This document shows, in pieces, positions 1 to 16,123 of a stretch of DNA of 24,944 bases; positions within the stretch are counted from its first letter, which is position 1; each line of letters begins with the position of its first letter. The DNA lies in the IMG/VR virus record IMGVR_UViG_3300031857_011472, positions 1 to 24,944 of that record. One strand, given 5' to 3'. The position numbers were made by a program, and so were the translations under genes. The DNA comes from a virus. Under the pieces are notes generated by a model. It searched no databases. It saw only the letters and a program-made list of their open reading frames with translations, and was not told the origin of the DNA.

Positions 1-629
1 GGTGATACAGTTCCACCAAAGAATTCAAATGCATCATCGTTAGCATAGATAGTTTGAACATTCTCAATGATTGTTCCACTACCAACACCACCTAATGTTA
101 GTGCGTTTATTTCCGAGTTTGGCATTGCTGCAATTCCTGCATATTCAATTCTTACAAAACGAAGAACACCACTATTATCTAAATCGTTTGTTCCACCAAA
201 TGGTCTACCTATACCACCTTCGATTGTTGGTTCTGATGTTCTATTGGTTTTTGCTCTACCCAATATAACAATACCACCCCAATCACCAGGTGCCTTTTCA
301 CCATTTGCTCTACCTGATGTAAATACAATTGGTTTTGTTGCAGTTCCTTCCGCAATTAATTGTGCTCCTCTTTCGATGCACAATGCTCCCTTTTCAGCTA
401 TATCAGATACGATTGTTGTACCCGGTTGAATGATAAGTTTTGCTCCATCGGTTACATATACATAACCTTTCAATGTCCAAACTTTATCCGCAGTTAAAGT
501 TGTTGTTGTATTAATGTTGCCGGTAAGTGTAGTTGATGTTGGAATGTTAATCGGTCCATCACCACCACCTAATTCTTTTTCGCAACTCAATAATCCAAAT
601 GCTAAAATAGCTACTAATAGTTTTCTCAT
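1..629 (-). CDS. Surface lipoprotein with right-handed beta-helix type repeats (3' end outside window)
   Basis: The translation starts with a lipoprotein signal peptide (MRKLLVAILAFGLLSC, lipobox LLSC, then EKE). A short Gly/Thr linker and a repeat-rich region follow, with phrases such as LTADKVWTLKGYVYV, IIQPGTTIVSD, PGDWGGIVILG, VLRFVRIEYAG and ALTLGGVGSGTIIENVQ. This pattern is typical of a Bacteroidetes lipoprotein family with parallel beta-helix repeats, often encoded beside TonB-dependent receptors. About 209 residues are visible and the rest lies beyond the left edge. The start codon overlaps the stop of the TonB receptor gene in an ATGA junction, so the two are probably co-translated. 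A role as the surface partner of the receptor (substrate capture) is inference; the ligand is unknown. Confidence 0.8.
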   Translation of the reverse strand, partial: MRKLLVAILAFGLLSCEKELGGGDGPINIPTSTTLTGNINTTTTLTADKVWTLKGYVYVTDGAKLIIQPGTTIVSDIAEKGALCIERGAQLIAEGTATKPIVFTSGRANGEKAPGDWGGIVILGRAKTNRTSEPTIEGGIGRPFGGTNDLDNSGVLRFVRIEYAGIAAMPNSEINALTLGGVGSGTIIENVQTIYANDDAFEFFGGTVS

Positions 630-2875
630 AAATTCAAATTTAATGTTAATGAAATTGTTTGTTCGTTGTTTGTTTTTATCAAATTTCGGTTTTGTAACTT
701 TTGATAATAGATTGATGGTTGCGCAAGTACATCACCTATTGCCAATTTTATTTCACCTTTATTCAATTTGTGTAAAAGAGTTATATCCAATACATCTCTA
801 CTATTTTCAAAGATGTTTGGGTAACCCTGAAATCCTACTGCTGATATTCTATCTCCAACTCTATTGTAAGTTATGTTGATAGTATTTTTCTTTTTGTGTA
901 TATTCACTCCACCATTTAACACATAGTTTGATTGTCCCTGCAATTGTCTTTTCATACCATTCACTTCTACTTCGGAATTCATTACCGAAAGATTTGTGTA
1001 GAAATCAAACCAACCATTTATTTTTTTACGAACTTCCAACTCAACACCATATAGGATAGCTGAATTGGGATTTGTATAAGTTAATAATAAGTTTGATGGA
1101 ACTGAACCATCTGCTACAATTTGTTCAATTGGTTTAATGAAGTTCTTACCAAATAAGGAAAGTGAAATATTCTCACCTGCCTTTGGATACCATTCGTATT
1201 TAAGGTCTACATTATATATGTCAGATTTTTCTAACTTTGAGTTTCCTAATATTTGTGCGTTTCTTACAAAATCATAATAAGCAAAATTAGCTACTTCTCT
1301 AAACTCTGGTCTTGCTAATGTTTTACTTAATGAAAATCTATACTTTGTTTTTTCTTCGTTGTATGAAAGATTTAGGGATGGTAGTATATCCAAATACTCT
1401 CTATCTACATTTACCTTCTGTCCACTAAAATCTGCGGTTGATACATCAAATAAATTATACTCACCTCTTAATCCGGTGTTTAATTTCCATTTACCGAATT
1501 CAGTATCATACATTGTGTAAAGAGAACCCAAATCAAAATCGGCTGTGTATTTATCCGTATTGTTTGTAATTTCATCCATCAAATCAGTTGACTGATATCT
1601 AAATACTCTAGCATTGAATCCTCTAATCTTTTTTAAGTATCCACCACCTACTTTTACTTTACCAAATTCTTTATTGATATTACCATTAAAAGAGTTCTCA
1701 TCCATTACACTCCAAAAACGATATGTATCTCTCCATGCGGTTTGGTATGGTTCGTTTACTCCTAATGATTTTGTAATTGGATTAACTCTATAATCGGGTT
1801 GCTCTCTAAAGATGTAATTGTATCCTAAATTAAAATCTAATGTTTTAATCTTACCATCGAATTGTGAATTAATTACAACGTTATTAATATGATTTGACGA
1901 TGTACTTCTTACGTTCTGAATATTATCAAAATTATCACCATTACGGGTTAGATATGTATCATCGGACTGATAGTTTACTAATGTTTTCCAACTATATCGA
2001 TTTTTACCTAAATAAGTTAAATTTAATAAACCATTTGCAGAAAATCTTTTTGTAAATAAAGTATCTTTATAATCGTATGCTAATTCGGTAGATGATTGAT
2101 AATCTTTTCTATCAATATAGTTTAAAACAAATGAGTTTCTAATTGTAGAACTTAATAATGCATTCCATTTACCTTTTTTATATCCAGCTGATAATCCACC
2201 ATTTAAATTTGGCAATGAAGTAAATCCTTCTACCATTGGGTTACCAAATTGTTTCGTAAATAATCTTTTATCACCATTTCCGCTAATTCTGTATTTGTAA
2301 GTAGATGGGAAGGTGGAAGGGAAATCAGTAGGTTGAACTAACTTGAAATCTTTCGAAGTTGAAACCGAGCCCCAACCACTTCCCAATGAGATATTAAAAA
2401 AGTTATCGGATACTTCTTTTGTTGAAACTTGCACCAAACCACCGGCCCAATCACCTGGTTGATTTGCGGATGCCGATTTAGCAACTATAATATTATCAAT
2501 TAAAGATGTTGGAATTATATCAAATGAAAATGCTCTTCTGTCAGGTTCAGTTGATGGTAATAGGGTTTTGTTTAATAAAGCCGAATTGTATCTATCCGCT
2601 AATCCTCTTACTAATACAAACTTATCGTTTTGTATTGTTACGCCACTTACTCTTTTAAGTGCATCACCCACATTTCTGTCAGGTGTTTTTTTAATAAAAT
2701 CAATAGATACTCCGTCCGAAACTACGGATGAATTACGAATTGTAGTTATTACAGCTGCTTCGGTGGATTTCTTGCCTGCCGAACGGACTGTTACCGTTGA
2801 TAATTGTTTGGAAAATAGGGTGTCTTGCGAATACGTTACAAATGGAAGTAACAATAATAAAAGAAACGATTTCAT
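626..2875 (-). CDS. TonB-dependent outer-membrane receptor
   Basis: 749 residues. The signal peptide MKSFLLLLLLPFVTYSQ leads directly into a plug domain (about residues 25-150) with the landmarks VGDALKRVSGVTIQ, FVLVRGLADRYN, IPTSLIDNIIVAKSASANQPGDWAGGLVQVSTK. A long region of alternating polar/aromatic beta-strands follows, with barrel-like phrases such as YRFSLSKTLARPEFRE and a beta-strand C terminus (ISLTLNLNL). In the family such proteins import siderophores, vitamins, glycans or peptides across the outer membrane using TonB energy. Most Bacteroidetes relatives carry an N-terminal carboxypeptidase-regulatory-like domain before the plug; here it is absent, so the gene is compact. The gene is intact and is followed by an overlapping lipoprotein gene. 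A TonB receptor in a phage is unusual. The substrate cannot be told from sequence. Confidence 0.88.
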   Translation of the reverse strand: MKSFLLLLLLPFVTYSQDTLFSKQLSTVTVRSAGKKSTEAAVITTIRNSSVVSDGVSIDFIKKTPDRNVGDALKRVSGVTIQNDKFVLVRGLADRYNSALLNKTLLPSTEPDRRAFSFDIIPTSLIDNIIVAKSASANQPGDWAGGLVQVSTKEVSDNFFNISLGSGWGSVSTSKDFKLVQPTDFPSTFPSTYKYRISGNGDKRLFTKQFGNPMVEGFTSLPNLNGGLSAGYKKGKWNALLSSTIRNSFVLNYIDRKDYQSSTELAYDYKDTLFTKRFSANGLLNLTYLGKNRYSWKTLVNYQSDDTYLTRNGDNFDNIQNVRSTSSNHINNVVINSQFDGKIKTLDFNLGYNYIFREQPDYRVNPITKSLGVNEPYQTAWRDTYRFWSVMDENSFNGNINKEFGKVKVGGGYLKKIRGFNARVFRYQSTDLMDEITNNTDKYTADFDLGSLYTMYDTEFGKWKLNTGLRGEYNLFDVSTADFSGQKVNVDREYLDILPSLNLSYNEEKTKYRFSLSKTLARPEFREVANFAYYDFVRNAQILGNSKLEKSDIYNVDLKYEWYPKAGENISLSLFGKNFIKPIEQIVADGSVPSNLLLTYTNPNSAILYGVELEVRKKINGWFDFYTNLSVMNSEVEVNGMKRQLQGQSNYVLNGGVNIHKKKNTINITYNRVGDRISAVGFQGYPNIFENSRDVLDITLLHKLNKGEIKLAIGDVLAQPSIYYQKLQNRNLIKTNNEQTISLTLNLNL

Positions 2876-2947
2876 AAAGTCATTTAAGTTAGTTCCTCAA
2901 TAACTATGTAATCGTTTCTCTAAATAGGGTATTTCAATATTAAGAAA

Positions 2948-3283
2948 TTATGAAGAAATTCCACAAAGTGTTAAGAATTCAGATGCATTATGTATTACAT
3001 CTTCTGATTTGAATTTTCTTAACATAGCCTCTGCTATTTCCTTTCTATTGTTCATATCATCTACCATACGAATAATTTCAGCAACACCTACAACCATATC
3101 TCTATCGTTTTCATGACCTGGCGCAACTTCTACTTCTTTGATTGGAGTATTATCGTTTCCACATTTGTGACAAGTATATGGATGTTTCCTACCTTCGGAT
3201 ATTTTCCAAGTCCAATCACACTTATCGCAAATTACTTTACCATTAGAAACTTTTTCTTTTAATAAACTACTTAATCTTATCAT
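2948..3283 (-). CDS. Zinc-ribbon protein with N-terminal capsid-targeting-like tag
   Basis: 111 residues. It begins MIRLSSLLKE, almost the same as the next gene upstream, with an L-x-E motif whose Glu is residue 10. A four-cysteine zinc ribbon follows (C19-x2-C22, then C38-x2-C41, in the context ICDKCDWTW and YTCHKCGND). The C-terminal ~60 residues look helical (VVGVAEIIRMVDDMNNRKEIAEAML). The start overlaps the stop of the preceding gene in a TAATG junction. Inference: the first ten residues target the protein to the phage prohead and are removed by the prohead protease, leaving a small internal head protein. The function of the ribbon is unknown. Confidence 0.75.
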   Translation of the reverse strand: MIRLSSLLKEKVSNGKVICDKCDWTWKISEGRKHPYTCHKCGNDNTPIKEVEVAPGHENDRDMVVGVAEIIRMVDDMNNRKEIAEAMLRKFKSEDVIHNASEFLTLCGISS

Positions 3284-3567
3284 TATTTTAATTTATTATA
3301 AAATTTATCGTATATAGTTTGCTTAATTTGTATAGGTAATTTTAATTTTCTATCTTTAATATAATCATCTAACTTGACCGATTTTACGGAATACTTATAA
3401 TCAAATTTAGCCATTGGTTTTGATTTTAAAGTTATGTCTACCAATGTATCTCCATTTTTATCCCAGCCCTTAGATGGATAAGATAAAACGGTATCTTTTA
3501 AAAATTCTTCAAAAGAAACTTTTTTTGATTTTTTTACTTCTTTTAATAAACTACTTAATTTTATCAT
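3254..3567. repeat. Direct DNA repeat encoding the N-terminal tag (copies 3254-3283 and 3538-3567)
   Basis: Two 30-base copies on the plus strand (3254-3283 and 3538-3567) differ at one position and contain the block TTTTAATAAACTACTTAAT. On the minus strand each is the first ten codons of a gene, from ATG to the L-K-E codons. The third tagged gene (start 4177) shares the peptide pattern (MIELKSILNE) but its DNA has diverged more. Identity confined to the 5' ends of unrelated genes points to duplication or copying of the tag as a module. Confidence 0.75.
3283..3567 (-). CDS. Small basic protein with N-terminal capsid-targeting-like tag
   Basis: 94 residues, lysine-rich, with no recognised domain. 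I chose the internal ATG giving MIKLSSLLKE rather than an upstream in-frame start that would run back into the 202-aa gene. This choice matches the start of the two neighbouring tagged genes and leaves a 1-base gap after the upstream stop. The remainder (KKSKKVSFEEFLKD, WDKNGDTLVDITLKSKPMA) predicts mixed alpha/beta. The TAATG junction with the next gene suggests coupled translation. The tag ends in L-K-E at residue 10. A head-internal role is inferred from the tag alone. Confidence 0.72.
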   Translation of the reverse strand: MIKLSSLLKEVKKSKKVSFEEFLKDTVLSYPSKGWDKNGDTLVDITLKSKPMAKFDYKYSVKSVKLDDYIKDRKLKLPIQIKQTIYDKFYNKLK

Positions 3568-3568
3568 A

Positions 3569-4177
3569 TTATTTACATTTTTTCCAACCACCACCTTTTG
3601 ATTTGTAGTTCTTTGCAGCCCATCCGTTTGCATACGCAGATGGATATACATCGAATTTCTTTTTAGCGGCAGATTTAGATGCTGACCATTTACCTGGGTC
3701 AGTTGGACAATTCTTTTCCAAGAATAATTCCAGTTTTTCTTCTATTGTCATGATTTCGTTTTTCTTTTTACCAGCACAATGTGCTTTTTGTGAGAATCCT
3801 TTTGGGTTAGAACAATTGATTGAGTTCTTATATTTTGTACTCCACTTTTCTTCCAATCCTTCACTAGCTCCTGTCTTTACAAATGTTGGTTTTTGACCTT
3901 TTGATTTTTCACCACCTTTCTTAGCATCTCCTGCTTTGGATTGTGCAGCTCTTTTTCTTTTTACAAATGTAGCAATACCATCTTTACCTAACTTAGCTGC
4001 TTTTTCTTTTGATAAACAAGCTGCATATGAATCTCCTTTCTCACTATCTCCACATTTACCAGCTTTCTCTCCTTTAGTATTATATCTATCCCAGCCACCA
4101 CCAGTAGTAGAGCCTTCACCACCTTTACCAAACCATTTGCGGAGGTCTTCGTTTAATATTGATTTTAATTCAATCAC
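3569..4177 (-). CDS. Basic mosaic protein, DUF5872-like N-terminal domain, with capsid-targeting-like tag
   Basis: 202 residues with a GTG start. The tag MIELKSILNE comes first, with L-N-E ending at residue 10. A domain with DLRKWFGKGGEG, GGGWDRYNTKGEKAGKCGD and SYAACLSKEKAAKLG, then FVKRKRAAQSKAG, resembles the DUF5872-type domain known from viral proteins. A second motif block reads KYKNSINCSNPKGFSQKAHC, and a third C-terminal module reads KKKFDVYPSAYANGWAAK then GGGWKKC. All three blocks recur in large-phage proteins. The protein is very rich in Lys and Gly, which suggests nucleic-acid contact. The GTG overlaps the stop of the 35-aa gene by one base (TAGTG). A packaged DNA-associated head protein is my inference. 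Confidence 0.75.
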   Translation of the reverse strand: MIELKSILNEDLRKWFGKGGEGSTTGGGWDRYNTKGEKAGKCGDSEKGDSYAACLSKEKAAKLGKDGIATFVKRKRAAQSKAGDAKKGGEKSKGQKPTFVKTGASEGLEEKWSTKYKNSINCSNPKGFSQKAHCAGKKKNEIMTIEEKLELFLEKNCPTDPGKWSASKSAAKKKFDVYPSAYANGWAAKNYKSKGGGWKKCK

Positions 4178-4284
4178 TATTTTAATTTATTTAATATTGC
4201 TAAATTTGCATCTATTAATTTCTTTTTCTTCAAACCACTTCTTCTACTTCTCATTGGTTTTGGTTTTTTTGCTGCACTTCCCAT
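4177..4284 (-). CDS. 35-aa highly basic microprotein
   Basis: Begins MGSAAKKPKPMRSRRSGLKK and ends in a short helix-like tail (LIDANLAILNKLK); about a third of the residues are Lys or Arg. It fills exactly the space between the CsgG-like gene stop (4 bases away) and the GTG of the 202-aa gene, with which its TAG stop shares one base. This fit and the bias toward small basic residues support a real gene. It has no known family. A nucleic-acid-binding or head-internal role is possible but unproven. Confidence 0.55.
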   Translation of the reverse strand: MGSAAKKPKPMRSRRSGLKKKKLIDANLAILNKLK

Positions 4285-4288
4285 ATTA

Positions 4289-5017
4289 TTACTTAGCGAA
4301 TACGCCCTTTTTAATTAATTTATCTAAAATGTTTGCACATGCTACATCCAATGCTTTCTTAGTTGAAATACTAATTGTTGATTGGTTAAACTTAATTGGG
4401 TCTATTGAAGCATCCGAAACTAATGTTAATTGTCTAGTTGTTTTTGCTTCACCCAAACCAGATGCTGCTATAATTGCTCCAGTTTCTGCATTTGTGAATC
4501 TAACCTGTAAACCTAAACGAGTTACCATATTATCTTTAATACCATCCTTTAGGTTGATAGTTTCATCTTCCGATACTGAATAATCATACACCTCAATTTC
4601 TACAAAGTAGTGTGCTAATTTAATATTTCCTCTACCATTAATTTTGTTTTCAGAAATTCCAGCGTTTGATGCTTTGAATTGTTGCACCATTCTGTTTTTG
4701 ATTTCAGTTTTATCTTCGGTGAATTCGAATCTATTAAGATTATCCAAATATTCTAATACGATGTTTGCAACACCCAATCCAACTCTCTTTTCTTTTAGTT
4801 CAGGATACATTTCGTACACTTCTTCACCAATACCACACTTTAGAATTTGTATGTACTTTTTAGGTCCTTCATAATCCATATAAGCAGATATATCTCTTTT
4901 CTTTTCAAAATCCGCCTTAAATTCTTCCGTCTTTGTACTTCCTATTGTTTGCGCAGTTACTACACTTACACCACTCGTAATCAACAATATACCTAATAAT
5001 ACTAATAATTTTTTCAT
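4289..5017 (-). CDS. Secreted CsgG-like protein
   Basis: 242 residues. A signal peptide (MKKLLVLLGILLITSGVSVV, probably cleaved after TAQ) is followed by a CsgG-type fold: KRVGLGVANIVLEYLDN, KLAHYFVEIEVYDYS, VTRLGLQVRFTNAETGAIIAA and a C-terminal helix with FNQSTISISTKKALD and ANILDKLIKK. CsgG forms the outer-membrane curli secretion pore, and CsgG-like proteins are known in several marine T4-like phages. Unlike bacterial CsgG there is no lipobox cysteine. It shares several landmarks with the 218-aa protein starting at 14516, so the two are probably paralogs. It sits directly after an outer-membrane-barrel candidate. Whether it makes a pore is not shown by the sequence. Confidence 0.68.
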   Translation of the reverse strand: MKKLLVLLGILLITSGVSVVTAQTIGSTKTEEFKADFEKKRDISAYMDYEGPKKYIQILKCGIGEEVYEMYPELKEKRVGLGVANIVLEYLDNLNRFEFTEDKTEIKNRMVQQFKASNAGISENKINGRGNIKLAHYFVEIEVYDYSVSEDETINLKDGIKDNMVTRLGLQVRFTNAETGAIIAASGLGEAKTTRQLTLVSDASIDPIKFNQSTISISTKKALDVACANILDKLIKKGVFAK

Positions 5018-5033
5018 ACATATCTATTTTTTA

Positions 5034-5042
5034 TATAAATAT
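5034..5042 (-). promoter_or_regulatory. Candidate class 2 (late-type) promoter element
   Basis: The coding strand reads GATATTTATATAA about 18-25 bases upstream of the CsgG-like start, in the gap after the previous gene. It matches the ATATTTAT(A/G) motif found in seven gaps of this window, with no TTTG box 20 bases upstream. Confidence 0.35.
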
Positions 5043-5043
5043 C

Positions 5044-5943
5044 TTAAAATTGAAAGTTCGTACCAATCATAAACATAATTGGATTAGATTTCTTATAACC
5101 TACCGATTCTGATAATTTATCCCAAGTTGTGTTATATCTGATATTGGTGTTTAATATAAACCTTTTAGTTATTTTCCAATCCATAGATGTACCATAATAT
5201 AAGTCCAAATTGAAATCATTCAAATATGCTAAATCTGATTCAGTACCATCTTTGAATACTTTGTAGATATCACTCATAGCAAATATTTGTGGTGATATAT
5301 TAACTCTTTTTGTTTTAAGTGTATATGTGTACATTAACATTCCTTTGTAAGTAGTTTGTGATGATGCTGGCATTTGTGGATAAATCAAATCTAAAAAATC
5401 ACCATTGATATCAATCGTATATTTTCCTTCCCACTCACCTTGATATGAATCCCAATATGTTTTTGATGCCGTTAAACTATATCCAAATGTTCCAAACTTT
5501 TTAGTTCTGAATACATCTATAAATGAAATGTTAATATCTTTTTGGAAATCAAAATCCGTTGAATAAAATGTTTGTATCGTTGTTGTTCTCTTATCGGTAT
5601 TTCTACTAAAACCATAACCTACTCCATAATAATTCCATATAGGATTTATTGATGCGGCAAATGAGTGTCCCCATTTACCATTCATTGATGATTTGCTATA
5701 CCCTAAATTTAAAGTAGTTGATACCTGCTTTCCTATTATACCAACTGATAAGTTTGATGATGAAAGAACATCTTTTGAAAAATCAATATAAGATTGTAAT
5801 ATACCCACATCATTCCAGTCATCGCTCTCTCCAAATAATTCTTTTGCAGATAATTGTAATGTATCAGGTTTTACAATTTGTGCGTTTGAAACAAAACCTA
5901 TACAAAATAAGAATACTATGATTATTAGTTTTTTCATATTCAT
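5044..5943 (-). CDS. Outer-membrane beta-barrel candidate
   Basis: 299 residues. The signal peptide is KKLIIIVFLFCIGFVSNAQ. Long amphipathic beta-strands follow (VSTTLNLGYSKSS, WNYYGVGYGFSRN, TFGYSLTASKTYW, MLMYTYTLKTKRVNISPQIF, FILNTNIRYNTTW), and the chain ends in a strand with a C-terminal phenylalanine (MIGTNFQF), the usual barrel-assembly signature. No family is recognised. Two starts are possible, MNMKK here or the second Met six bases downstream (5937); the class 2 promoter motif overlaps the first, which slightly favours the second. It directly precedes the secreted CsgG-like gene and may act with it at the outer membrane (inference). Confidence 0.7.
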   Translation of the reverse strand: MNMKKLIIIVFLFCIGFVSNAQIVKPDTLQLSAKELFGESDDWNDVGILQSYIDFSKDVLSSSNLSVGIIGKQVSTTLNLGYSKSSMNGKWGHSFAASINPIWNYYGVGYGFSRNTDKRTTTIQTFYSTDFDFQKDINISFIDVFRTKKFGTFGYSLTASKTYWDSYQGEWEGKYTIDINGDFLDLIYPQMPASSQTTYKGMLMYTYTLKTKRVNISPQIFAMSDIYKVFKDGTESDLAYLNDFNLDLYYGTSMDWKITKRFILNTNIRYNTTWDKLSESVGYKKSNPIMFMIGTNFQF

Positions 5944-5949
5944 AAATAT
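5942..5949 (-). promoter_or_regulatory. Candidate class 2 (late-type) promoter element
   Basis: The coding strand reads TTTATATTTATGAATATG immediately after the terminator hairpin and overlapping the first possible ATG of the 299-aa gene. If used, the message would be nearly leaderless. Same ATATTTAT(A/G) core as in six other gaps. Confidence 0.28.
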
Positions 5950-5952
5950 AAA

Positions 5953-5978
5953 AAAGGGAGAAACGATGTTCTCCCTTT
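5953..5978 (-). terminator. Rho-independent terminator after the DUF2589 pair
   Basis: A ten-base-pair stem (AAAGGGAGAA with TTCTCCCTTT) encloses a six-base loop. On the coding strand it is followed by a T run (CCCTTTTTTATATTT). It lies 3 bases after the stop of the 158-aa gene. It is nearly identical in sequence to the hairpin at 7384-7411. Confidence 0.85.
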
Positions 5979-5981
5979 AAT

Positions 5982-6458
5982 TTACTTTACATTTGGGTCT
6001 TCTAGATTTTTGATATATTCATCAATTAATCTACTTACGGCTTCAGGTTTATCATCCGCCTTAAACTTAACCTTTATTTTAGCCATACCTGTTTCATGTG
6101 GATTAAATCCAGAATCAACCTCAATACCTTTGATATTGTGTTCATATCCTTTTTTCTTAAATAACCCTAATAGAGATTTTTTAAGACTGGATACTTCTTT
6201 ATCTTCATCACCAAATATAAGTCTACAAGAGAACTCAATATCTAGTTCATCCAATCCAATAGATGAGTGGTCTGCTAAAATATAAAGAGGTACAACCAAA
6301 TCCTTACCACCTATATTAAAAGTGTGAGTTTTGGGTGTACCATCTTCATTGAAATAGTTTCGGAGAGCATTAATATGCTGTCTTTCACTTATACCTTGAG
6401 AAACCATGGCGGCCTCTAAAAGACCGCCAACTAGTTCCTCTACATTTAATCTTGCCAT
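5982..6458 (-). CDS. DUF2589-like protein, short paralog
   Basis: 158 residues, no signal peptide. The N terminus MARLNVEELVGGLLEAAMVS is helical. A beta-rich part follows with FNIGGKDLVVPLYILADHSS, LDELDIEFSCRLIF and MAKIKVKFKADDKPEAVSRLIDEYI. The order (VPL segment, a beta strand pattern x-x-D-I-E-F, a final VKVKFK strand and an amphipathic helix) follows the DUF2589 family, whose function is unknown. The larger DUF2589 protein lies 24 bases upstream and the two probably interact (inference). The gene ends in a strong terminator. Confidence 0.6.
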   Translation of the reverse strand: MARLNVEELVGGLLEAAMVSQGISERQHINALRNYFNEDGTPKTHTFNIGGKDLVVPLYILADHSSIGLDELDIEFSCRLIFGDEDKEVSSLKKSLLGLFKKKGYEHNIKGIEVDSGFNPHETGMAKIKVKFKADDKPEAVSRLIDEYIKNLEDPNVK

Positions 6459-6482
6459 AATATAACCTTTATTATTTAATTA

Positions 6483-7079
6483 TTACTTTCTTTCTTCAGT
6501 AAGTGGAATTAAAGATGGTTCTAACATTTGAGTTAGGTAATCTGATAATTTCAACATACCTTCAGTTGCTGGTAATTGTTCAGCGTGTACTTTTACATTG
6601 TATTTTGCTGAGTTGTCAGTACTTCTAGTGTTTTCTTTGTTGGTTGCAACTTTACCTGCTACTTTAGCGCTAAAGCTCATACCCCACCATCTTCCGCTTG
6701 CAGATGCTTCATAGCTGTTTTCAGTAGCTACCGTATCTTTTGATGCTTCTGATGTTTTTACTTCCATAGAGAATTCAATATCTGCTGAAGTAATTGCTAA
6801 TGAAGGTAATGGTACTAATGGTAACATCGGAACTTTGTTATACAATTTTTGTATTTCTTGTTCTCCAGTTTGACCGTTTGTAACAACACGATTCATTTCT
6901 ACATCTAATGAACGAGCAGATGTTTTACCTGTCTTTTCATCTTTTACGAAAGCTACTTCAGAAATGTATTTCCAAGTTACTTCGTTTAATTTTGCCTGTC
7001 CTTTAGCCATTCCAACGATAGGGGAAACAATTAGTTCCTCTATTGGAAGTCCTGCGAATTGGTCTGCGATTCCTGCCAT
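6483..7079 (-). CDS. DUF2589 family protein
   Basis: 198 residues, cytoplasmic by prediction. It begins MAGIADQFAGLPIEELIVSP and continues with IVGMAKGQAKLNEVTWKYI, VPMLPLVPLPSLAITSADIE and FSMEVKTSEASKD. A long Ala/Ser/Lys region (FSAKVAGKVATNKENT, YNVKVHAEQLPATEGMLKLS) and the end LTQMLEPSLIPLTEE follow. The N-terminal helix, the VPL(V)PLPSL segment and the IEF-type strand are the marks of DUF2589 proteins, found in many Bacteroidetes and some phages. Biochemistry is unknown; the repeated beta structure would suit a self-assembling structural protein (inference). It lies between a zinc-ribbon gene and the second DUF2589-like gene. Confidence 0.75.
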   Translation of the reverse strand: MAGIADQFAGLPIEELIVSPIVGMAKGQAKLNEVTWKYISEVAFVKDEKTGKTSARSLDVEMNRVVTNGQTGEQEIQKLYNKVPMLPLVPLPSLAITSADIEFSMEVKTSEASKDTVATENSYEASASGRWWGMSFSAKVAGKVATNKENTRSTDNSAKYNVKVHAEQLPATEGMLKLSDYLTQMLEPSLIPLTEERK

Positions 7080-7121
7080 AAAATTTTATTTTTTGAATTA
7101 AATTAGTATAACTTGTTCTTC

Positions 7122-7130
7122 ATAAATATC
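7122..7130 (-). promoter_or_regulatory. Candidate class 2 (late-type) promoter element
   Basis: The coding strand reads CTGATATTTATGAAGA, 43-50 bases upstream of the DUF2589 gene start in a 75-base gap. ATATTTAT(A/G) core without a -33 TTTG box at 20 bases. Confidence 0.33.
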
Positions 7131-7154
7131 AGAAATTATCAAAACACCATATGG

Positions 7155-7358
7155 TTATGAAAACTTAACCATTCCTTTATATTGTTTTTTTATCTTATCT
7201 ATTTCTGAAATAGCTTCATTAAAACTCTTTTTAATCTCCTCATTTACAGTAAAATCCATAATAACTTGACAATGTGGACAAGCAGAAACCGGATGTTTTA
7301 TGATAAATTCTAAAGTTAAACCGATTGGTTTTTTACAAGCCGGACAAGGTAAAGCCAT
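7155..7358 (-). CDS. Small zinc-ribbon protein
   Basis: 67 residues. The first half holds two CPxC knuckles (CPAC at residues 5-8 and CPHC near residues 32-35) separated by a hydrophobic stretch (KPIGLTLEFIIKHPVSA). The second half is a charged helix (INKSF-like segment NEAISEIDKIKKQYKG). This is a treble-clef or rubredoxin-like zinc ribbon. It is the first gene of the short unit that also carries the two DUF2589-type proteins, so it may assist them; this is inference. Confidence 0.68.
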   Translation of the reverse strand: MALPCPACKKPIGLTLEFIIKHPVSACPHCQVIMDFTVNEEIKKSFNEAISEIDKIKKQYKGMVKFS

Positions 7359-7373
7359 AACATTTTATTTAGT

Positions 7374-7382
7374 ATAAATATA
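7374..7382 (-). promoter_or_regulatory. Candidate class 2 (late-type) promoter element
   Basis: The coding strand reads TTTATATTTATACTAA, 16-23 bases upstream of the zinc-ribbon start and directly downstream of the T run of the preceding terminator. This is the position expected of a promoter opening a new unit. Confidence 0.42.
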
Positions 7383-7383
7383 A

Positions 7384-7411
7384 AAAAGGGAGAAACTATG
7401 TTCTCCCTTTT
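7384..7411 (-). terminator. Rho-independent terminator ending the surface-protein operon
   Basis: An eleven-base-pair stem (AAAAGGGAGAA with TTCTCCCTTTT) encloses the loop ACTATG. The coding strand continues into CCCTTTTTTATATTTA. It lies 39 bases after the stop of the 92-aa membrane protein gene. Stem and loop are almost the same as at 5953-5978. Confidence 0.85.
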
Positions 7412-7450
7412 AAATATATCCGCCCTTCCTACAGTTAAAGGACATATTTA

Positions 7451-7729
7451 CTATCCTAATTCTTCGTCAGCTCCAGCATCCAATTTGTTCTTATCGTGCT
7501 CAGCTTTTCTATTGATGTACTTATCAACCGAAGCGATACCGAATGAACCTAATGTGATAACCAAGAAACCATTGAAGATATATTCATTGATTAATAGTTC
7601 TTTACCCATCCAACCTGTGATAAGGTCTACGAATAAAGCAATTACCATCATTGCGAATGACAAGAAACCAACTACTGATTTTTCGTTGATATCGTTGTTG
7701 TCTTTAAAAAGTTCTTTAATGAATCCCAT
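7451..7729 (-). CDS. Small two-TM membrane protein (holin-like topology)
   Basis: 92 residues. It starts MGFIKELFKDNNDINEKS, followed by a TM segment (VVGFLSFAMMVIALFVDLIT) at about residues 19-38 and a second (FNGFLVITLGSFGIASVDKYI) at about 53-73. The tail is charged (RKAEHDKNKLDAGADEELG). The size and topology suit a holin or a small accessory membrane protein, but no lysis enzyme is nearby, so the holin label is only a possibility. It is the last gene of the operon that carries secreted and lipoprotein genes. Confidence 0.65.
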   Translation of the reverse strand: MGFIKELFKDNNDINEKSVVGFLSFAMMVIALFVDLITGWMGKELLINEYIFNGFLVITLGSFGIASVDKYINRKAEHDKNKLDAGADEELG

Positions 7730-7773
7730 AATTTTACATTTTAATTAATTAATGTAACAAATACATAACTAAT

Positions 7774-8436
7774 TTATCCTGCCATTTCAGCATCTTCATC
7801 TTTTATTTTTCCACACTTCAAGCATTCTTCATCACCATCACCATCTACATCACCCCAAATATGTTCACATTGTCTGTGTGCGAAATATGCATCAATCTTA
7901 CCATCACCATCAAAATCAATACCATCCATTACACCATCACCATCTTCATCCACTTCAACACCGGTTCTACCTGCTTTTGGAGTTGTTACAACATCATTAA
8001 TTTGTGGTTCTACTTTTTCTTCTTTTGGTTTGTTAGCTTCAATCAAATTAATTTCATGTGCGTTATTTGCCGCTTGAACAAATGCATCAGGAATTAATGG
8101 AGTATTGTTTGGTGGAGTTACAGGCATATCAGCAGTGTTGCTTAATGATGTACCATCTTCTTCATCCATTTTTTGAACTAGCATTTTATCCTTATCGGTA
8201 TCACTAAACCAATAGTCAATGATTTTACCATAAGAACCAATGAAAGCTCCTAACAACAATAAAAGAAGTTCTTTCCATTCTCCTTCTATTGCAGATTTAT
8301 TAAAAATCGCAAAGAACATCCCTGCCATTATAAACATAAAGCCACCCAATACCATAGCGGTAATATACCATCTACGGCTCATCATTTTATTTAATAATTC
8401 TTTAAATCCGCTTGGCGGTTGTTGATTGTTACTCAT
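7774..8436 (-). CDS. Two-TM membrane protein with calcium-binding-type DxDxDG loops
   Basis: 220 residues from the ATG giving MSNNQQPPSGFKE. An upstream in-frame start exists, but this one forms an eight-base overlap (ATGAGTAA) with the stop of the 32-aa gene. TM segments are at about 23-44 (WYITAMVLGGFMFIMAGMFF) and 54-75 (EWKELLLLLLGAFIGSYG). A linker rich in Pro, Asn and Glu leads to acidic loops at 163-182 (DEDGDGVMDGIDFDGDGKID) and near 196 (GDVDGDGDEE). These loops resemble thrombospondin type 3 or EF-hand calcium loops and are followed by CLKCG. The paired TM and GAFIGSYGKIIDYWF phrase recall phage holin-like proteins. The same loop type occurs in the 442-aa membrane protein. Confidence 0.68.
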   Translation of the reverse strand: MSNNQQPPSGFKELLNKMMSRRWYITAMVLGGFMFIMAGMFFAIFNKSAIEGEWKELLLLLLGAFIGSYGKIIDYWFSDTDKDKMLVQKMDEEDGTSLSNTADMPVTPPNNTPLIPDAFVQAANNAHEINLIEANKPKEEKVEPQINDVVTTPKAGRTGVEVDEDGDGVMDGIDFDGDGKIDAYFAHRQCEHIWGDVDGDGDEECLKCGKIKDEDAEMAG

Positions 8437-8527
8437 TTTCTTTTCGTATTCTTTCGTTATTTGCATGATTCATAGCCCACATTAAGAAAGCTATAAAAAA
8501 TAATGTAACACCTATTTTATATCCCAT
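8429..8527 (-). CDS. 32-aa single-TM microprotein
   Basis: Starts MGYKIGVTLFFIAFLMWAMN and ends in a charged tail (HANNERIRKENE). One TM helix is obvious. The gene sits 3 bases after the stop of the 105-aa gene, and its TAA overlaps the next start by eight bases, filling the gap exactly as an operon member should. Its function is unknown. It may be a small subunit for the neighbouring membrane proteins. Confidence 0.55.
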   Translation of the reverse strand: MGYKIGVTLFFIAFLMWAMNHANNERIRKENE

Positions 8528-8530
8528 AGA

Positions 8531-8848
8531 TTACCATTCAGCTGGCTTCTCTTTGAATTCATCACCTTCTTTCTTCTTTGGTGCTGCCGCTGGAGCTGCT
8601 GGTTTAGCCGTTCCACCGCTATTTCCACCGCCACCATTAACAATTACAGTTTTACCTGCTGATTGTTGTTGTGTGTTTTGGATGTTGATTACCGGTGCAG
8701 CTTGTTGAACTGCTGGTTTTTCTTCATCACCACCTGTTAATTTTGTTGTTACCCATCCACCTACACCTAAAGTTATAGTTGAGATAAATCCGATGATTAC
8801 ATTCTTAATCGATGAACCACCACCTTGTTGTTCTTGTTCGTCTGCCAT
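8531..8848 (-). CDS. Small one-TM protein with low-complexity Ala/Pro/Gly tail
   Basis: 105 residues: an acidic, Gln/Gly-rich start (MADEQEQQGGGSSIKN), one TM or buried glycine-rich helix (VIIGFISTITLGVGGWVTTK), then a disordered tail with VINIQNTQQQSAGKTVIVNG, a run of Gly/Asn and AAPAAAPKKKEGDEFKEK. There is no signal peptide and no known family. Together with the 32-aa, 220-aa and 92-aa genes it forms a cluster of four small membrane proteins at the end of the surface operon. A scaffolding or membrane-tethering role is a guess. Confidence 0.62.
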   Translation of the reverse strand: MADEQEQQGGGSSIKNVIIGFISTITLGVGGWVTTKLTGGDEEKPAVQQAAPVINIQNTQQQSAGKTVIVNGGGGNSGGTAKPAAPAAAPKKKEGDEFKEKPAEW

Positions 8849-8874
8849 TTTATGTTACTTTTTCTTGTTTAAAT

Positions 8875-9246
8875 TTATAACTTATTAAAATCGGTAATAC
8901 CAATCATTTTACCACTTGCATCATATACAGCTACTCTATATGCCGATGCGGGTAATGCGGTAGTATATACCTTTAATATATTATCTCCAGAATTTGCGTA
9001 CATTGTTTCTTTTGATACCACTCTATTTGCAATATCTAAAATTTTAACTGTCACATTTCCTGCAGTTTCTAACTTAACGTTCATCGCCACTTCTGAAGTG
9101 ACAAATTGTGATTGTAACTTAATACCAGCGGATGCTGACATATTTAATTCTGCATTTGGATTTACAGGTTGAATTATATCAATTGGAGATTTTCTACATC
9201 CAACCAAGATGATAGCTCCAAATAATACTAATAATACTTTTTTCAT
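8875..9246 (-). CDS. Mini-lipoprotein with sorting-domain-like fold (second copy)
   Basis: 123 residues. The lipoprotein signal is MKKVLLVLFGAIILVGC, followed by RKSPIDIIQPVNPNAEL. The rest is one beta-sandwich-like module with NVTVKILDIANRVVSKETMY, GDNILKVYTTALPASAYRVA and VYDASGKMIGITDFNK. The layout (strand, I-x-D/N-x-x-G/N-x-x-V turn, N-x-L-x-V..L-P-x-x-x-Y-x-V-x-V) resembles the type A C-terminal sorting domain of Bacteroidetes type IX secretion substrates, here with no cargo in front. It is homologous in layout to the 117-aa lipoprotein next to it, likely a tandem duplication. Confidence 0.68.
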   Translation of the reverse strand: MKKVLLVLFGAIILVGCRKSPIDIIQPVNPNAELNMSASAGIKLQSQFVTSEVAMNVKLETAGNVTVKILDIANRVVSKETMYANSGDNILKVYTTALPASAYRVAVYDASGKMIGITDFNKL

Positions 9247-9258
9247 TTTAATACCTTT

Positions 9259-9612
9259 TTAGTTTATTATCAGTAACGTCTTACCTATTTGGACACTATT
9301 CTCATCTTCCAAAGATAAATATAAATATCTAACAGGTAACGATTTTGTATATAACTTTAAGGAATTTATTCCATTTTTACCAATTATTCTTTCTCTCGCT
9401 ACAACATTTTGACCTATTGAATCAAAAAGAGTAAGTGTAAACACTCCCTCTGATTTTAGGTTGAAGTTAATTTCACCTTCATTTACAATACTTACTTCTT
9501 TCACAGAAAATATATCGGTTGGAGTTGGTGGCGGAGTTGGTTCTACATATACCTTGCGGCATCCGATTATAAAAATCACACAACATAATATTATAATTTT
9601 AATCCATTTCAT
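9259..9612 (-). CDS. Mini-lipoprotein with sorting-domain-like fold (first copy)
   Basis: 117 residues. The lipoprotein signal is MKWIKIIILCCVIFIIGC followed by RKVYVEPTPPPTPTD, a proline linker. One beta module follows: VSIVNEGEINFNLKSEGVFT, LTLFDSIGQNVVARERII, GINSLKLYTKSLPVRYLYLS and VQIGKTLLIIN. This is the same design as the 123-aa neighbour, including GCRK at the acylation site. The start overlaps the stop of the lectin-protein gene (TAATG). An anchor or adaptor on the outer membrane for the secreted cohesin/dockerin-like proteins is a possible role (inference). Confidence 0.68.
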   Translation of the reverse strand: MKWIKIIILCCVIFIIGCRKVYVEPTPPPTPTDIFSVKEVSIVNEGEINFNLKSEGVFTLTLFDSIGQNVVARERIIGKNGINSLKLYTKSLPVRYLYLSLEDENSVQIGKTLLIIN

Positions 9613-12188
9613 TATTGTATCTTTATTTTTACACTAGTTCCATTCACATTCACAGCTTCATTAGTAGCTATGGATAGTAACCCTAATGAGTTAGGGATTT
9701 GTTTATTTAATTTGAAACCCAATCGGTATTCGGTAGACCCATCCAGAAGTTCACCAGAGGTGTTTATAGAACCCAAATTAATAAATGAACCTTTATCTGT
9801 CCCAAAGTTTATAGGGGAACCTGTGGTTCTAAAATTGGTTCCTGTGTACTTTAGAATGGTGTTATCATAGTTTATCTGAAATTGAGTTCCTACTATTTGA
9901 TTTAAATTTGGATTGAACTTAATGTATGCAATTAGGCTATCACCTTTTATTTCCGAAATGATGTATGCGGTTGGTTGAAGTGTTACCGATTTCAAACCAA
10001 AGTTTGCTGACATTGTGGTGATTCCGTTTGAAGGTGGTGTTGCTGAGTGAGATAAGTTTACATCTCCTTTCCAAGTTACTGCCAAATTGTATGTATAATT
10101 CGTTACACCATCTAATAAACTAAATCCATATTCTTTTCCTAAATAATTTGGAAATTGTGCCCAATTAGATTTACCAATCGTTGAGTATGTAGAATCGGAT
10201 ATAATCTTCATTGTATTATCCAAAGTGTAACTACTAATCAAATCTTTTGCACCAGTTAGGTTTTGTAATAATCTAAAACAATCTGCTTCATTAAAAATAC
10301 CATTATCATCTACATCTGCATTTTTGAATTGAATACCATATGTAAATTCGTTTCCACTTTGATTACCGAATATCCCACCATTAGATACTTCTTTGAATGC
10401 CAAATAAACATCGGATACCGTTACAATACTATTATAAAGGGTTTTTAATTGAACAGAATCATATTGTTGAAATTCTAATTTGTGTTGTTTGTATGCACCA
10501 TTTTGTGCAAAATTTATATTAGAAGTAAAGGCCCAATTATTGTAATTAGCATTTCGTATATTAGCAGCAAATGCCGAAGTTCCATCAGTTACTTTTGGCA
10601 ATGATGATGGAACAATATAGTGTGCCCAATATGTAGATGTTTGTTGATAAGTTACAGGTCCATCATACACATCTAATATTTTTACTTTAGAAATTGTTGA
10701 AGGTTGGGTATTTCCAAATCTTGTCAAATCAATGTAAAGAGTTGTAGTTCCATTTGATATATTAACATAAGAAAATTCCGCTTGACCGGCTGAAATTGTT
10801 GCTTTATATGAAGATGGTTCGTTTACAAATTGATAACTCAATCCCCATGCTCCCCATTCGGAAGTTGTGATACCATTACGAGTTGAACCAGGATAATTAT
10901 TTTTTCCTTCAACTACTTTAATGTAAACTTCTTTTGTTTGCCCAATTGTTATAACTCCAGCATGCACTGCCATAGCAGGAATGTAAGAGTCATTGGTGTA
11001 TATATCAGTTCCCCAACCACCACCACCTGCTCCTGTGATTGTCATTTTATATATCTTACCAATATCAGTTTCACTATATGCAGTCATATCGTTTTGGGTT
11101 GCGGCTTGGATTGCAGATGAATATAGTTTTGCGGTATCTAATTGATTTGAAAGATAAACTTTACCCAAACCATTTAGTGCTTTGTAATCACCACCAGATG
11201 TCCAAACTGATGTGGCATCGTTTCTTTTGAATAGTTTTGATGAAAAATTACTTTCAGTTATATTAGAACCAAAATTAAAATTAAATACCGCTTTTAAAGT
11301 TTCTCCATTTGAGTGAACAACACTATTAGAATAAAATTCAGTAAATGTTGCATCATCAGGATTAGTCCAAGTTCCAAATTCAACTACATAAGCACAACTA
11401 AAATTATTAGGTAAATCGTTCCATTGGTTTCCACCACCCCATTTAGTTACTGCATAATCTTCATTACCACTATTGTTTGGTTCACCACCTGCCCAGTTAT
11501 TATATTGTCCAACTATGTTTCCGGCAGTTTGTCCGTTTGATGTTTTGATTAGAGTTCCAGCTTCAGGCCCTGCATCAATTCTCCATTGTCCTTCAACAAC
11601 TTCATCGGTAAGAGCAAACCAAATACTAGATTGCGGAACATTGGCGAATATAAAAGCATCTTCCGAAGCAGATGTTATTGTTACCAAATATCCCGTCTGT
11701 CCTTTGAATGTTTGTTGAGATGATAGTGTTCTTGCATTTATATAAGTTGCTCCTGTTGATATAGGTCTATAAAAGTGTCCATTAACTCCATTGTAAAAAT
11801 ATCCAACAGGATTTACAGTTGCAGCTACTGAAATATTAATATCACCCGTTACCGAACCTGTATTTATTTTTAGAGATGTTAATGCCGTATTAATACTAGC
11901 CATTGTTCCCGTTACAACTAAACGAGTTTTATTACCACTTAAAGTAAATCCACTTGCTGCCGTTAAACCTGTTGTTGTGTTGAGATAGAATGTAGTACCT
12001 GAAGGTGGATTAACTAAACTAATTGATGCCAATAAAGTTGCAGTTGAACTAAACCCACTTAAAGAGAATCCACTTGCATCCTGTGCCGATGTATTTACCG
12101 TAAATGATTTAGGGTCTGGTGCATTTACTGCTTGCCCAAACCCAAAAATCGTTACAAAAGATAATAAAATTGTTAATAATATTCTCAT
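9612..12188 (-). CDS. Large secreted protein with C-type lectin, dockerin-like and cohesin-like modules
   Basis: 858 residues. The signal peptide MRILLTILLSFVTIFGFGQA is followed by an Ig/cadherin-like Ser/Thr-rich module to about residue 125. A C-type lectin domain spans about 126-272 with the canonical calcium/sugar motifs EPN (YNNWAGGEPNNSGNEDYA) and WND (GGGNQWNDLP) and the closing strand CAYVVEFG; EPN is the mannose-type signature. After a long beta-rich middle comes a dockerin-like stretch (TVSDVYLAFKE near 590, then DVDDNGIFNEADCFRLLQNL near 625-646). A C-terminal cohesin-like beta module (about 740-858) includes GTQFQINYDNTILKYTG. Probably exported and displayed on the cell surface or released. 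It is TAATG-coupled to both neighbours. The lectin ligand is unknown. Confidence 0.8.
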   Translation of the reverse strand: MRILLTILLSFVTIFGFGQAVNAPDPKSFTVNTSAQDASGFSLSGFSSTATLLASISLVNPPSGTTFYLNTTTGLTAASGFTLSGNKTRLVVTGTMASINTALTSLKINTGSVTGDINISVAATVNPVGYFYNGVNGHFYRPISTGATYINARTLSSQQTFKGQTGYLVTITSASEDAFIFANVPQSSIWFALTDEVVEGQWRIDAGPEAGTLIKTSNGQTAGNIVGQYNNWAGGEPNNSGNEDYAVTKWGGGNQWNDLPNNFSCAYVVEFGTWTNPDDATFTEFYSNSVVHSNGETLKAVFNFNFGSNITESNFSSKLFKRNDATSVWTSGGDYKALNGLGKVYLSNQLDTAKLYSSAIQAATQNDMTAYSETDIGKIYKMTITGAGGGGWGTDIYTNDSYIPAMAVHAGVITIGQTKEVYIKVVEGKNNYPGSTRNGITTSEWGAWGLSYQFVNEPSSYKATISAGQAEFSYVNISNGTTTLYIDLTRFGNTQPSTISKVKILDVYDGPVTYQQTSTYWAHYIVPSSLPKVTDGTSAFAANIRNANYNNWAFTSNINFAQNGAYKQHKLEFQQYDSVQLKTLYNSIVTVSDVYLAFKEVSNGGIFGNQSGNEFTYGIQFKNADVDDNGIFNEADCFRLLQNLTGAKDLISSYTLDNTMKIISDSTYSTIGKSNWAQFPNYLGKEYGFSLLDGVTNYTYNLAVTWKGDVNLSHSATPPSNGITTMSANFGLKSVTLQPTAYIISEIKGDSLIAYIKFNPNLNQIVGTQFQINYDNTILKYTGTNFRTTGSPINFGTDKGSFINLGSINTSGELLDGSTEYRLGFKLNKQIPNSLGLLSIATNEAVNVNGTSVKIKIQ

Positions 12189-13858
12189 TATTCAATTACT
12201 AGTTCTACCTTCTTACCATTCGCATCAACTGCATCGGCTAATACAAAGAAGAATAAACCAGCGGTGTTGCTTAATGGAACTTTAGGTGTGAAAATTAATT
12301 TATATGGAGTACCTGTCTTAATTTTAGCTGTCTTTAATTGGTCGATAGAACCAAAAGTCAATCTACCATTATCATGTGTAGAGAAGTTTGTTATTGTACT
12401 ACCAGCATCAAATATTACATTATCCAAAGTTAGTTTTGTTGAATCATAATTCATAATAATCTGCAAACCAGCTAAACCTTCTTTTGTCAATCCACTGGTA
12501 AGAACAACTTTACCACTCTCTAATGTAGAAGTAATACTTAAAGTTGCACTTTCAGCTGTTTTATTTGAATAAGTGTTTGTTTGATATGAGGTCATTGCCA
12601 TTGATTTTATATTTTCACTTGTCAAACTTGATTTATCCATATTTGCCGAATTTGTGAATATCCCCTGTGTTATTCTTGTTGCAATTGTATCAGGATGTGA
12701 TGAGTGTGACCAATCTAAATCACCACCCCATGCAAATACCGCGTCTACAGTTTGTGCAGGTTGAGTTACATATACTCTATATTTTGCAGTTCCATCTAAC
12801 CAACTCTGATTTAATAAACCACTATTCCATCTAAAAGTTGTTGCCGTATTTGATGGTATGAATGCAAGCGATGATACGTTTTGTCCCATCACATGCGCAA
12901 ATAGATAGTAAGAATCTTTTTCGGTAAATATATCATCATCTTTAGATACATTACCAATTTTCTTTTCTAAATTAGGTCTTGTAAAAAACGTTGCATTACC
13001 AGTAATATCGGTTTGTGAATGTCCTAAAAATGCTTTATAAGCATCCGATATAGTGATAACGTTATTCATCCATGTTTTTTGTGTTGCAACGCCAACAAAA
13101 ACACCCAAACTATCACCAACTTTAACACCAGATGTGAATATAGCTTCACCTGCTGCATCAAGTACTTTACTTTGAAGTGGCTGTTGTGTCCAATCTATAT
13201 CTCCACTACCATCGGTTTTTAATTTCATTAATTGAACATTATGGTCACCAATGTTATAGCCTTGTGGAAATAGAACTCTTACCTTAAAGAAAGATGTATT
13301 ACCAGTTACACCAGTTATTGTAGTTTGACCAGCAGTAGTTCTAATATAAGGAATATTAGCACCACTTGCACTATCAATTGCATATGCGTGATTTAATTTA
13401 AAAATTGCATTGTAAGTGTTCTGGTCTTTAATAATATATTTTTGAGTTGCCATTACACCATTAACGGACTGGTCGGCTCTTTGAACTGCCAATTGTCCTA
13501 CATTCCAATCATTGTTTGTATTATATCCCCAAGGTGTAGCAGTGTATTGTGCATAAAGCGCAGTATCCGGTGATGCCGCTGATGGAGTAAATGAATAGTT
13601 ATTCCAACCGGTATAATATGTTTGCGATTGACTACCCTGATTCCAACTTGTAGAAACATAGGTTAAGGCTTTGTTATTAAAAGAATATCTTAACCAAAAA
13701 TATCTTGGTTTAGTGTTTCCTTTATCAACCGTATAAGTTACGGTTATAGTATCACCAACTTTATATGGTCCAGAAGATATTGATTGGTTTACAATTATTT
13801 GCGCTTGAGAAATAAAGCTAACCAATACAAACGTTGCTAATAGTATAATTCTTTTCAT
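12188..13858 (-). CDS. Secreted protein with dockerin-like and cohesin-like modules
   Basis: 556 residues. The signal peptide MKRIILLATFVLVSFISQAQ precedes an N-terminal beta-sandwich (YKVGDTITVTYTVDKG, PRYFWLRYSFNNKALTYVS). A middle domain contains FKVRVLFPQGYNIGDHNVQL. A dockerin-like pair lies at about 267-325 (TISDAYKAFLGHS; KDDDIFTEKDSYYLFAHVMG), and a segment GGDLDWSHSSHPD follows. The C-terminal cohesin-like module (about 435-556) contains LAGLQIIMNYDSTKLTLDNV and ends VELVIE. The C-terminal half parallels the 858-aa neighbour (VTVSDVYLAFKE, GDVNLSHSATPP, QFQINYDNTILKY), so the two are distant paralogs. Probable surface or extracellular protein; possible binding to the partner through cohesin-dockerin-type contacts is inference. 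Confidence 0.78.
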   Translation of the reverse strand: MKRIILLATFVLVSFISQAQIIVNQSISSGPYKVGDTITVTYTVDKGNTKPRYFWLRYSFNNKALTYVSTSWNQGSQSQTYYTGWNNYSFTPSAASPDTALYAQYTATPWGYNTNNDWNVGQLAVQRADQSVNGVMATQKYIIKDQNTYNAIFKLNHAYAIDSASGANIPYIRTTAGQTTITGVTGNTSFFKVRVLFPQGYNIGDHNVQLMKLKTDGSGDIDWTQQPLQSKVLDAAGEAIFTSGVKVGDSLGVFVGVATQKTWMNNVITISDAYKAFLGHSQTDITGNATFFTRPNLEKKIGNVSKDDDIFTEKDSYYLFAHVMGQNVSSLAFIPSNTATTFRWNSGLLNQSWLDGTAKYRVYVTQPAQTVDAVFAWGGDLDWSHSSHPDTIATRITQGIFTNSANMDKSSLTSENIKSMAMTSYQTNTYSNKTAESATLSITSTLESGKVVLTSGLTKEGLAGLQIIMNYDSTKLTLDNVIFDAGSTITNFSTHDNGRLTFGSIDQLKTAKIKTGTPYKLIFTPKVPLSNTAGLFFFVLADAVDANGKKVELVIE

Positions 13859-13859
13859 T

Positions 13860-14516: not shown

Positions 14517-14579
14517 GATTTTTCCTGCTTATTATATTATCATAACAAGTTACGGAACACTTCAGGAAACTTTACTTTA

Positions 14580-14611
14580 TAAAACTATTGCAAAAACTAA
14601 TTGGATACAAA
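14580..14611 (-). promoter_or_regulatory. Host-type (Bacteroidetes) promoter of the surface operon
   Basis: The coding strand has TTTG, 20 bases, then TAGTTTTA, which fits the Bacteroidetes TTTG / TAnnTTTG promoter with one change in the last base. It lies just after a terminator and leaves a leader of about 60 bases before the CsgG-like start. The rest of the 159-base gap holds the terminator and no gene that I can see. Confidence 0.55.
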
Positions 14612-14616
14612 TAAAA

Positions 14617-14649
14617 AAGAGTATCCAAACATAAATATTGGATACTCTT
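14617..14649 (-). terminator. Rho-independent terminator after the DUF5856-like gene
   Basis: A twelve-base-pair stem (AAGAGTATCCAA with TTGGATACTCTT) encloses a nine-base loop. The coding strand continues with CTTTTTTATTTG. It closes the metabolism/sigma-factor unit, 27 bases after the last stop. Confidence 0.88.
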
Positions 14650-14675
14650 AAAATAGTATTAATTTTAATATTAAA

Positions 14676-15041: not shown

Positions 15042-15059
15042 ATTATAATCCTTTATAGA

Positions 15060-15782: not shown

Positions 15783-15784
15783 GT

Positions 15785-16072: not shown

Positions 16073-16090
16073 AAAATTTTAATTAATATA

Positions 16091-16122: not shown

Positions 16123-16123
16123 T

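Follow-up and report, generated by a model that had tools for sequence, protein, structure and literature searches.

At one end of a viral DNA stretch of 24,944 bases (IMG/VR record IMGVR_UViG_3300031857_011472, positions 1 to 24,944; this whole stretch is called the window below), a gene for a TonB-dependent receptor overlaps the gene for a surface-type lipoprotein. We put at roughly 0.73 the probability that this pair began as a phosphate-starvation operon of Bacteroidota, was captured by a T4-like phage lineage and now serves it as an auxiliary gene pair for phosphorus acquisition, predicted to be under the control of the host PhoB. The pair is no oddity of a single record; T4-like viruses of a large family, with presumed Bacteroidota hosts, carry it.

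The Receptor and Its Lipoprotein Partner

The receptor gene occupies positions 626..2875 of the minus strand, which bears nearly all of the window genes, and encodes 749 amino acids from an ATG start in a short form that lacks the N-terminal CarboxypepD_reg domain. Pfam recognizes a Plug domain (2e-8) followed by OMP_b-brl_3 (2e-25), the plug-then-barrel order of a TonB-dependent transporter, and the AlphaFold2 model built from the family alignment is a plugged barrel (mean pLDDT 85.6) whose top Foldseek matches in the PDB are TonB-dependent transporters, with E-values down to 2e-24. Within the phage clade to which this receptor belongs (see below), the mean share of the majority residue is 0.90 for the plug (residues 50-155; the Pfam domain PF07715 itself covers residues 51-145, positions 2441..2725 on the minus strand) and 0.81 for the barrel. 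A signal-peptide-like N-terminus and a tentative TonB-box-like segment, LSTVTVRS (residues 25-32, positions 2780..2803, minus strand), were read by eye in a region that is just moderately conserved (0.60); the segment aligns with EVVVxx of the bacterial relatives. The phage receptors, at 747-756 or ~825 amino acids, are smaller than their bacterial relatives (~930-960), with trimmed loops: insertions of ~12 and ~27 residues are absent after window residues 181 and 431, along with several shorter ones.

The first-pass annotation of this sequence had taken the missing N-terminal domain for an adaptation to the phage. This does not hold for the lineage as a whole, since 44 of the 65 complete phage receptors, judged by length, keep CarboxypepD_reg (pf13715; confirmed by Pfam in one of them, L012) and its gain or loss accounts for at least six changes on the receptor tree.

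The lipoprotein gene (positions 1..629, minus strand; ORF 3-629, 209 amino acids) has its 3' end outside the window, and its start codon and the receptor stop codon share an ATGA overlap (positions 626..629, minus strand), an arrangement indicative of translational coupling. A complete copy of 398 amino acids, with a lipobox cysteine at C16, lies at positions 5825-7021 of a second IMG/VR record of 62.9 kb (L003). The AlphaFold2 model is a confident beta-helix (pLDDT 91.1), predicted to be right-handed; a fold search against the PDB returned weak matches, every one of them a beta-helix protein, while a sequence search against solved structures found nothing and a Pfam search assigned no family. 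The lipoprotein lies next to the receptor in all 68 viral contigs that extend beyond the receptor, and the junction is a 4-nt overlap in 64 of these and a 2-nt gap in the other 4. Straight after the lipoprotein in L003 come two further secreted ORFs (7082-7909 and 7910-9340) that belong to no family, one of them with a long middle part rich in Ser, Lys and Glu.

The combination of a TonB-dependent transporter with a surface lipoprotein recalls the SusCD glycan importers, but the phage lipoprotein is a predicted beta-helix without a SusD domain (pf07980/pf14322) and without any Pfam family, and membership in the SusCD group was therefore ruled out.

The Surrounding Phage Genome

The first 6,453 nt of L003 are 100% identical to positions 1-6453 of the window, and a record from another IMG/VR metagenome (L002) is identical over 3,028 nt (window 1-3028). 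L003, the twin assembly of the window, encodes a T4-type portal (E 1e-71) and continues past the lipoprotein with more secreted-protein ORFs and then other phage genes; in a further contig (L004), homologues of the window genes between position 14676 and the lipoprotein follow an almost unchanged order. The window itself encodes a thymidylate synthase, an Hsp20 protein, a PhoH-like protein and a phage endonuclease-family protein, all consistent with a T4-like genome, and a DNA search of annotated phage records found no close phage match to it. The identical assemblies, the portal on L003 and the colinearity of L004 together indicate a genuine join and a T4-like genome, and exclude a chimera or a piece of bacterial chromosome. 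The first-pass annotation had described an intact 749-residue TonB-type receptor and an ATGA-overlapping lipoprotein in a T4-like context, and had named a chimeric join or a bacterial flank at this end of the window as what would overturn it; the ORFs, Pfam matches, identical assemblies and portal agree with the description, and neither a chimera nor a bacterial flank was encountered in L002, L003 or L004.

Two other features of the window deserve mention in their own right. Proteins that are secreted or resemble lipoproteins or barrels are encoded as a block at positions 4289-14516 (minus strand), and their order is the same in more than 20 phage contigs bearing the receptor pair. Domain searches within this region found LCCL (2e-12) and C-type lectin domains in one protein (9612-12188), a weak cohesin match in another (12188-13858) and DUF2589 in two adjacent proteins (5982-6458 and 6483-7079; Pfam 6e-13 and 2e-30), all on the minus strand. 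In addition, otherwise unrelated small proteins, both in the window (2948-3283; 3283-3651, from an internal start; and 3569-4177, all minus strand) and in many other loci (L002-L081), have in common a MIKLSSLLKE-like N-terminal peptide that ends in LxE or IxE. In the phage loci (1.38 Mb) such peptides begin 72 ORFs, of which 48 are distinct; in the bacterial loci (1.01 Mb) they begin 3. The capsid-targeting peptide of T4 is cut by the prohead protease, and we take the MIKLSSLLKE-like peptide to resemble it; by this likeness, the small proteins that bear it may be packaged in the capsid.

Distribution Among Viruses

Searches of IMG/VR returned 93 confirmed relatives of the receptor, the best 80 of which are 66-100% identical to it, and 140 relatives of the lipoprotein. 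Counted by eye from the best 80 receptor and best 80 lipoprotein loci, more than 100 distinct contigs carry genes of the pair, although some are near-copies of one another, so that contig counts are not counts of independent events. Among 50 records tested, T4 gp23 was present on 13, the T4 portal on 17 and either of them on 18, including contigs of 326, 274 and 209 kb. Both genes are under purifying selection: the median dN/dS from pairwise codon comparisons is 0.14 for the receptor and 0.18 for the lipoprotein, and the pairwise values for the receptor give no sign of positive selection.

The structure prediction and the family and viral metagenome searches proposed in the first-pass annotation have thus yielded a TonB-dependent transporter fold and a sizeable set of viral relatives, and its statement that such receptors are rarely phage-encoded proved wrong for this lineage. 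TonB-dependent receptors (SusC-like) had also been reported already in two megaphages, Mar_Mega_1 and LR745206, where they were read as serving carbohydrate uptake (PMC9723777); this report is the sole precedent that we found in the literature on phage-encoded TonB-dependent receptors. The 635-kb megaphage LR745206 (LR745206.1, about 13413-17253) resembles the present phages in encoding a TonB-dependent receptor and a neighboring beta-helix-type lipoprotein of the same family, but the proteins are ~28% identical and the order is lipoprotein, then receptor; judged from its sequence, this pair is a separate, independent capture. No convincing Pho box was found at the megaphage pair. One further candidate, MT838075.1 (GenBank “Bacteriophage sp.,” from human faeces), was rejected as evidence for phage carriage, because an AraC-like regulator adjoins a bacterial-type receptor/lipoprotein pair and the record looks like a bacterial fragment.

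A Probable Captured Phosphate-Starvation Operon

The nearest bacterial relatives of the phage pair are ~38-40% identical overall (among the matches listed, with one genome per species), and in 395 further Bacteroidota genomes identity reached 46-48% at most, over part of the sequence only. Maximum-likelihood analysis places the phage receptors in one clade (SH-aLRT 100) with a long branch; the phage lipoproteins likewise form a single clade on a long branch. This pattern fits either one capture or an unsampled donor lineage. A lipoprotein homologue lies near the receptor in 74 of 80 bacterial loci, directly downstream in nearly all, and we infer that the phage pair is a captured Bacteroidota operon.

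The bacterial neighborhoods point to phosphate. Of the bacterial loci, 58 span 13 kb or more, and phosphate-type genes (PHO4, DUF47, a response regulator or a kinase) lie within ~6 kb of the receptor in 26 of these; by family, PHO4 occurs in 18, DUF47 in 17, a response regulator in 15 and a kinase in 14, where a rough estimate from gene counts would have PHO4 by chance in well under one of the 58. Pfam analysis of example neighbors identified PHO4 (7e-95), PhoU_div (1e-25), Response_reg with Trans_reg_C (OmpR-type) and HisKA with HATPase. In Flavobacterium johnsoniae, Fjoh_0545 (pf07715, pf13715, pf14905) and Fjoh_0546 (a beta-helix lipoprotein, FII) come after phoR-phoB, and phosphate depletion raises them by 8.0 and 9.9, respectively (tabulated fold change, log2 scale; PMC8115612). 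By domain architecture and gene order, the bacterial homologues of the phage genes match this phosphate-starvation pair.

The likeness of the phage genes to this system (Fjoh_0545/0546; PUSIV, PhoBR operon; PMC8115612) extends to a Plug and OMP_b-brl_3 transporter followed by a surface lipoprotein of pectin-lyase (beta-helix) fold, and the long phage receptors share the full pf07715, pf13715, pf14905 architecture of Fjoh_0545. PhoBR-type genes also adjoin the bacterial relatives of these phage genes, and the relatives carry the promoter repeat described below; this repeat, with its 11-nt period, is present in the phages as well, although the site in the window is weaker than those of many relatives. 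Unlike the phage pair, the F. johnsoniae genes are chromosomal; the phage genes are joined by the ATGA overlap.

The Promoter Repeat

Matrix scans located a Pho-box-like direct repeat, TCTTCATAATTTCTTAATATTG, 60-81 nt before the receptor start (positions 2935..2956, minus strand), with half-sites CTTCATA and CTTAATA and an 11-nt period. The bacterial matrix gives the site a weak score (6.5 bits); phage-trained matrices score it better, and with a matrix built from the more distant phage copies alone it ranks third of the 49,846 window positions. Closer to the gene, 23-31 nt before its start, a conserved TAGTTATTG (positions 2898..2906, minus strand) may be a -7-like promoter element; its consensus, TAnT[AT]ATTG, occurs in 49 of 77 phage upstream regions at a median position of -28.

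The region before the receptor has exact 7-mer repeats at the 11-nt spacing of the Pho box layout in 25 of 75 bacteria (1.7 expected) and 18 of 77 phages (1.2 expected), while spacings of 9, 10, 12 and 13 were at or near chance. A matrix learned from bacterial promoters alone, with hits taken at 10 bits or more, gave 87 hits on both strands of 2.77 Mb of phage sequence, 27 of which fell in the 45-nt zone before the receptor (~0.1 expected by length); hits elsewhere were at or below the level of shuffled sequence, and on this ground a general phage promoter was rejected as the source of the repeat. At bacterial promoters, the same matrix and cut-off marked 52% of phoB-like regulators, 77% of porins, 73% of metallophosphoesterases and 5% of other genes, a preference that supports reading the repeat as a Pho box. 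The repeat lies 60-82 nt upstream of many phage receptor genes, and the phage upstream regions exceed the null threshold in 26 of 77 cases at 99% and 46 of 77 at 95%, leaving 31 of 77 under the 95% level; no convincing box was found upstream of the receptor in L039, L041, L044, L021 and L042. A predicted bacterial phosphate switch is apparently still attached to the phage pair.

A close parallel is the pstS gene of cyanophages, whose expression is controlled by the host PhoBR (PMC10976474). Like it, the present pair would be a phage-borne set of phosphate acquisition genes with a Pho-type promoter signal of the host, here a predicted one, and by this analogy the pair is probably under host PhoB control, bearing in mind that PhoB binding was not always found at predicted Pho boxes in phages (PMC10976474). 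Unlike PstS, which is a periplasmic phosphate-binding protein, the pair comprises an outer-membrane TonB-dependent transporter and a surface lipoprotein in phages of presumed Bacteroidota; the putative importer may be regarded as an outer-membrane counterpart of the cyanophage protein.

Alternative Explanations

The idea that the pair is not of phage origin at all, and entered the viral record as bacterial contamination or through a chimeric assembly, has in its favor only the fact that the pair is a common operon in Bacteroidota. Identical independent assemblies (L002 and L003), T4 gp23 and/or portal on 18 of the 50 records, with the twin of the window among them, a single phage clade apart from all sampled bacterial relatives, and phage neighbors that are colinear across many contigs rule it out, and we give it practically no weight. 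The proposal that the pair serves receptor replacement or superinfection exclusion, altering or masking the surface so that other phages cannot adsorb, draws on the general knowledge that TonB-dependent receptors are common phage receptors, yet no sequence feature or analysis result points in that direction. Such a role would need neither the plug, nor the lipoprotein partner, nor the Pho-box-like promoter, and the high conservation of plug and barrel among the phages, with a low pairwise dN/dS and no sign of positive selection, also speaks against it; we consider it improbable. The other suggestion of the first-pass annotation, that the infected cell gains a new uptake pair, has gained support and has been made specific by the PhoBR/PHO4 neighborhood of the homologues and the Pho-box-like repeat.

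What the pair takes up, and when it is expressed, could nevertheless differ from our preferred reading. A non-phosphorus nutrient (an iron complex, a glycan or a vitamin) would be the substrate if the phosphate neighborhood of the bacterial genes could not be transferred to the phage pair: phosphate genes are absent from the 6 kb around several bacterial copies, the phage clade stands on a long stem far from the sampled bacteria (38-40% identity among the matches listed), so that specificity could have shifted, and the solved structures closest by fold are siderophore and haem receptors, a likeness that reflects the shared fold only. The constant position of the Pho-box-like repeat ahead of many phage copies and the beta-helix partner retained in every contig that extends beyond the receptor make this unlikely, in our judgment. 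A somewhat stronger, still minority, possibility is that the pair does import phosphorus but that the repeat does not work as a PhoB site, being instead part of a phage promoter or an inherited leftover, and that the genes are expressed at all infections. The conserved TAnT[AT]ATTG element downstream of the repeat and the lack of a good box in several copies would suit this. A general phage promoter is hard to square with the chance-level frequency of the repeat in the rest of the phage loci, and a remnant with its persistence at a fixed place in diverged copies.

Implications

The capture of a phosphate-starvation operon for phosphorus acquisition remains the reading that we prefer, and the pair is, as auxiliary genes should be, phage-encoded (by the gp23 or portal records) and of host origin (by its bacterial homologues). 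Under this reading, when a phosphate-starved host is infected, the host PhoB would bind the repeat and the host RNA polymerase would transcribe the pair. The lipoprotein, set on the cell surface, would catch a phosphorus-containing ligand (phosphate itself or, with greater likelihood, an organic compound of phosphorus) and pass it to the receptor for import through the TonB system of the host; the imported phosphorus would then feed phage DNA synthesis at a time when the host has become too slow in making its own surface proteins. It seems reasonably likely that a widespread lineage of T4-like Bacteroidota phages re-equips the surface of the starved host in this way, with an outer-membrane phosphorus importer controlled by the host PhoB, and that an unrelated megaphage captured a like pair independently.

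Phage control of host phosphorus is best known from the cyanophages, where its sites of action are the periplasm and the inner membrane (PstS). The plant-associated Bacteroidetes that have been studied are without PstSABC, and scarce phosphate induces TonB-dependent transporters in them instead (PMC8115612). If our reading is true, phages of a phylum that is a major one in water and soil meet their phosphorus need at the outer membrane, and the presence of the pair in metagenomes and metatranscriptomes would mark phosphorus-limited infection. The compact, conserved phage versions could also help to reveal what the bacterial pair imports. It is probable, then, that a virus of this lineage can make its host take up phosphorus while the viral DNA is being copied.
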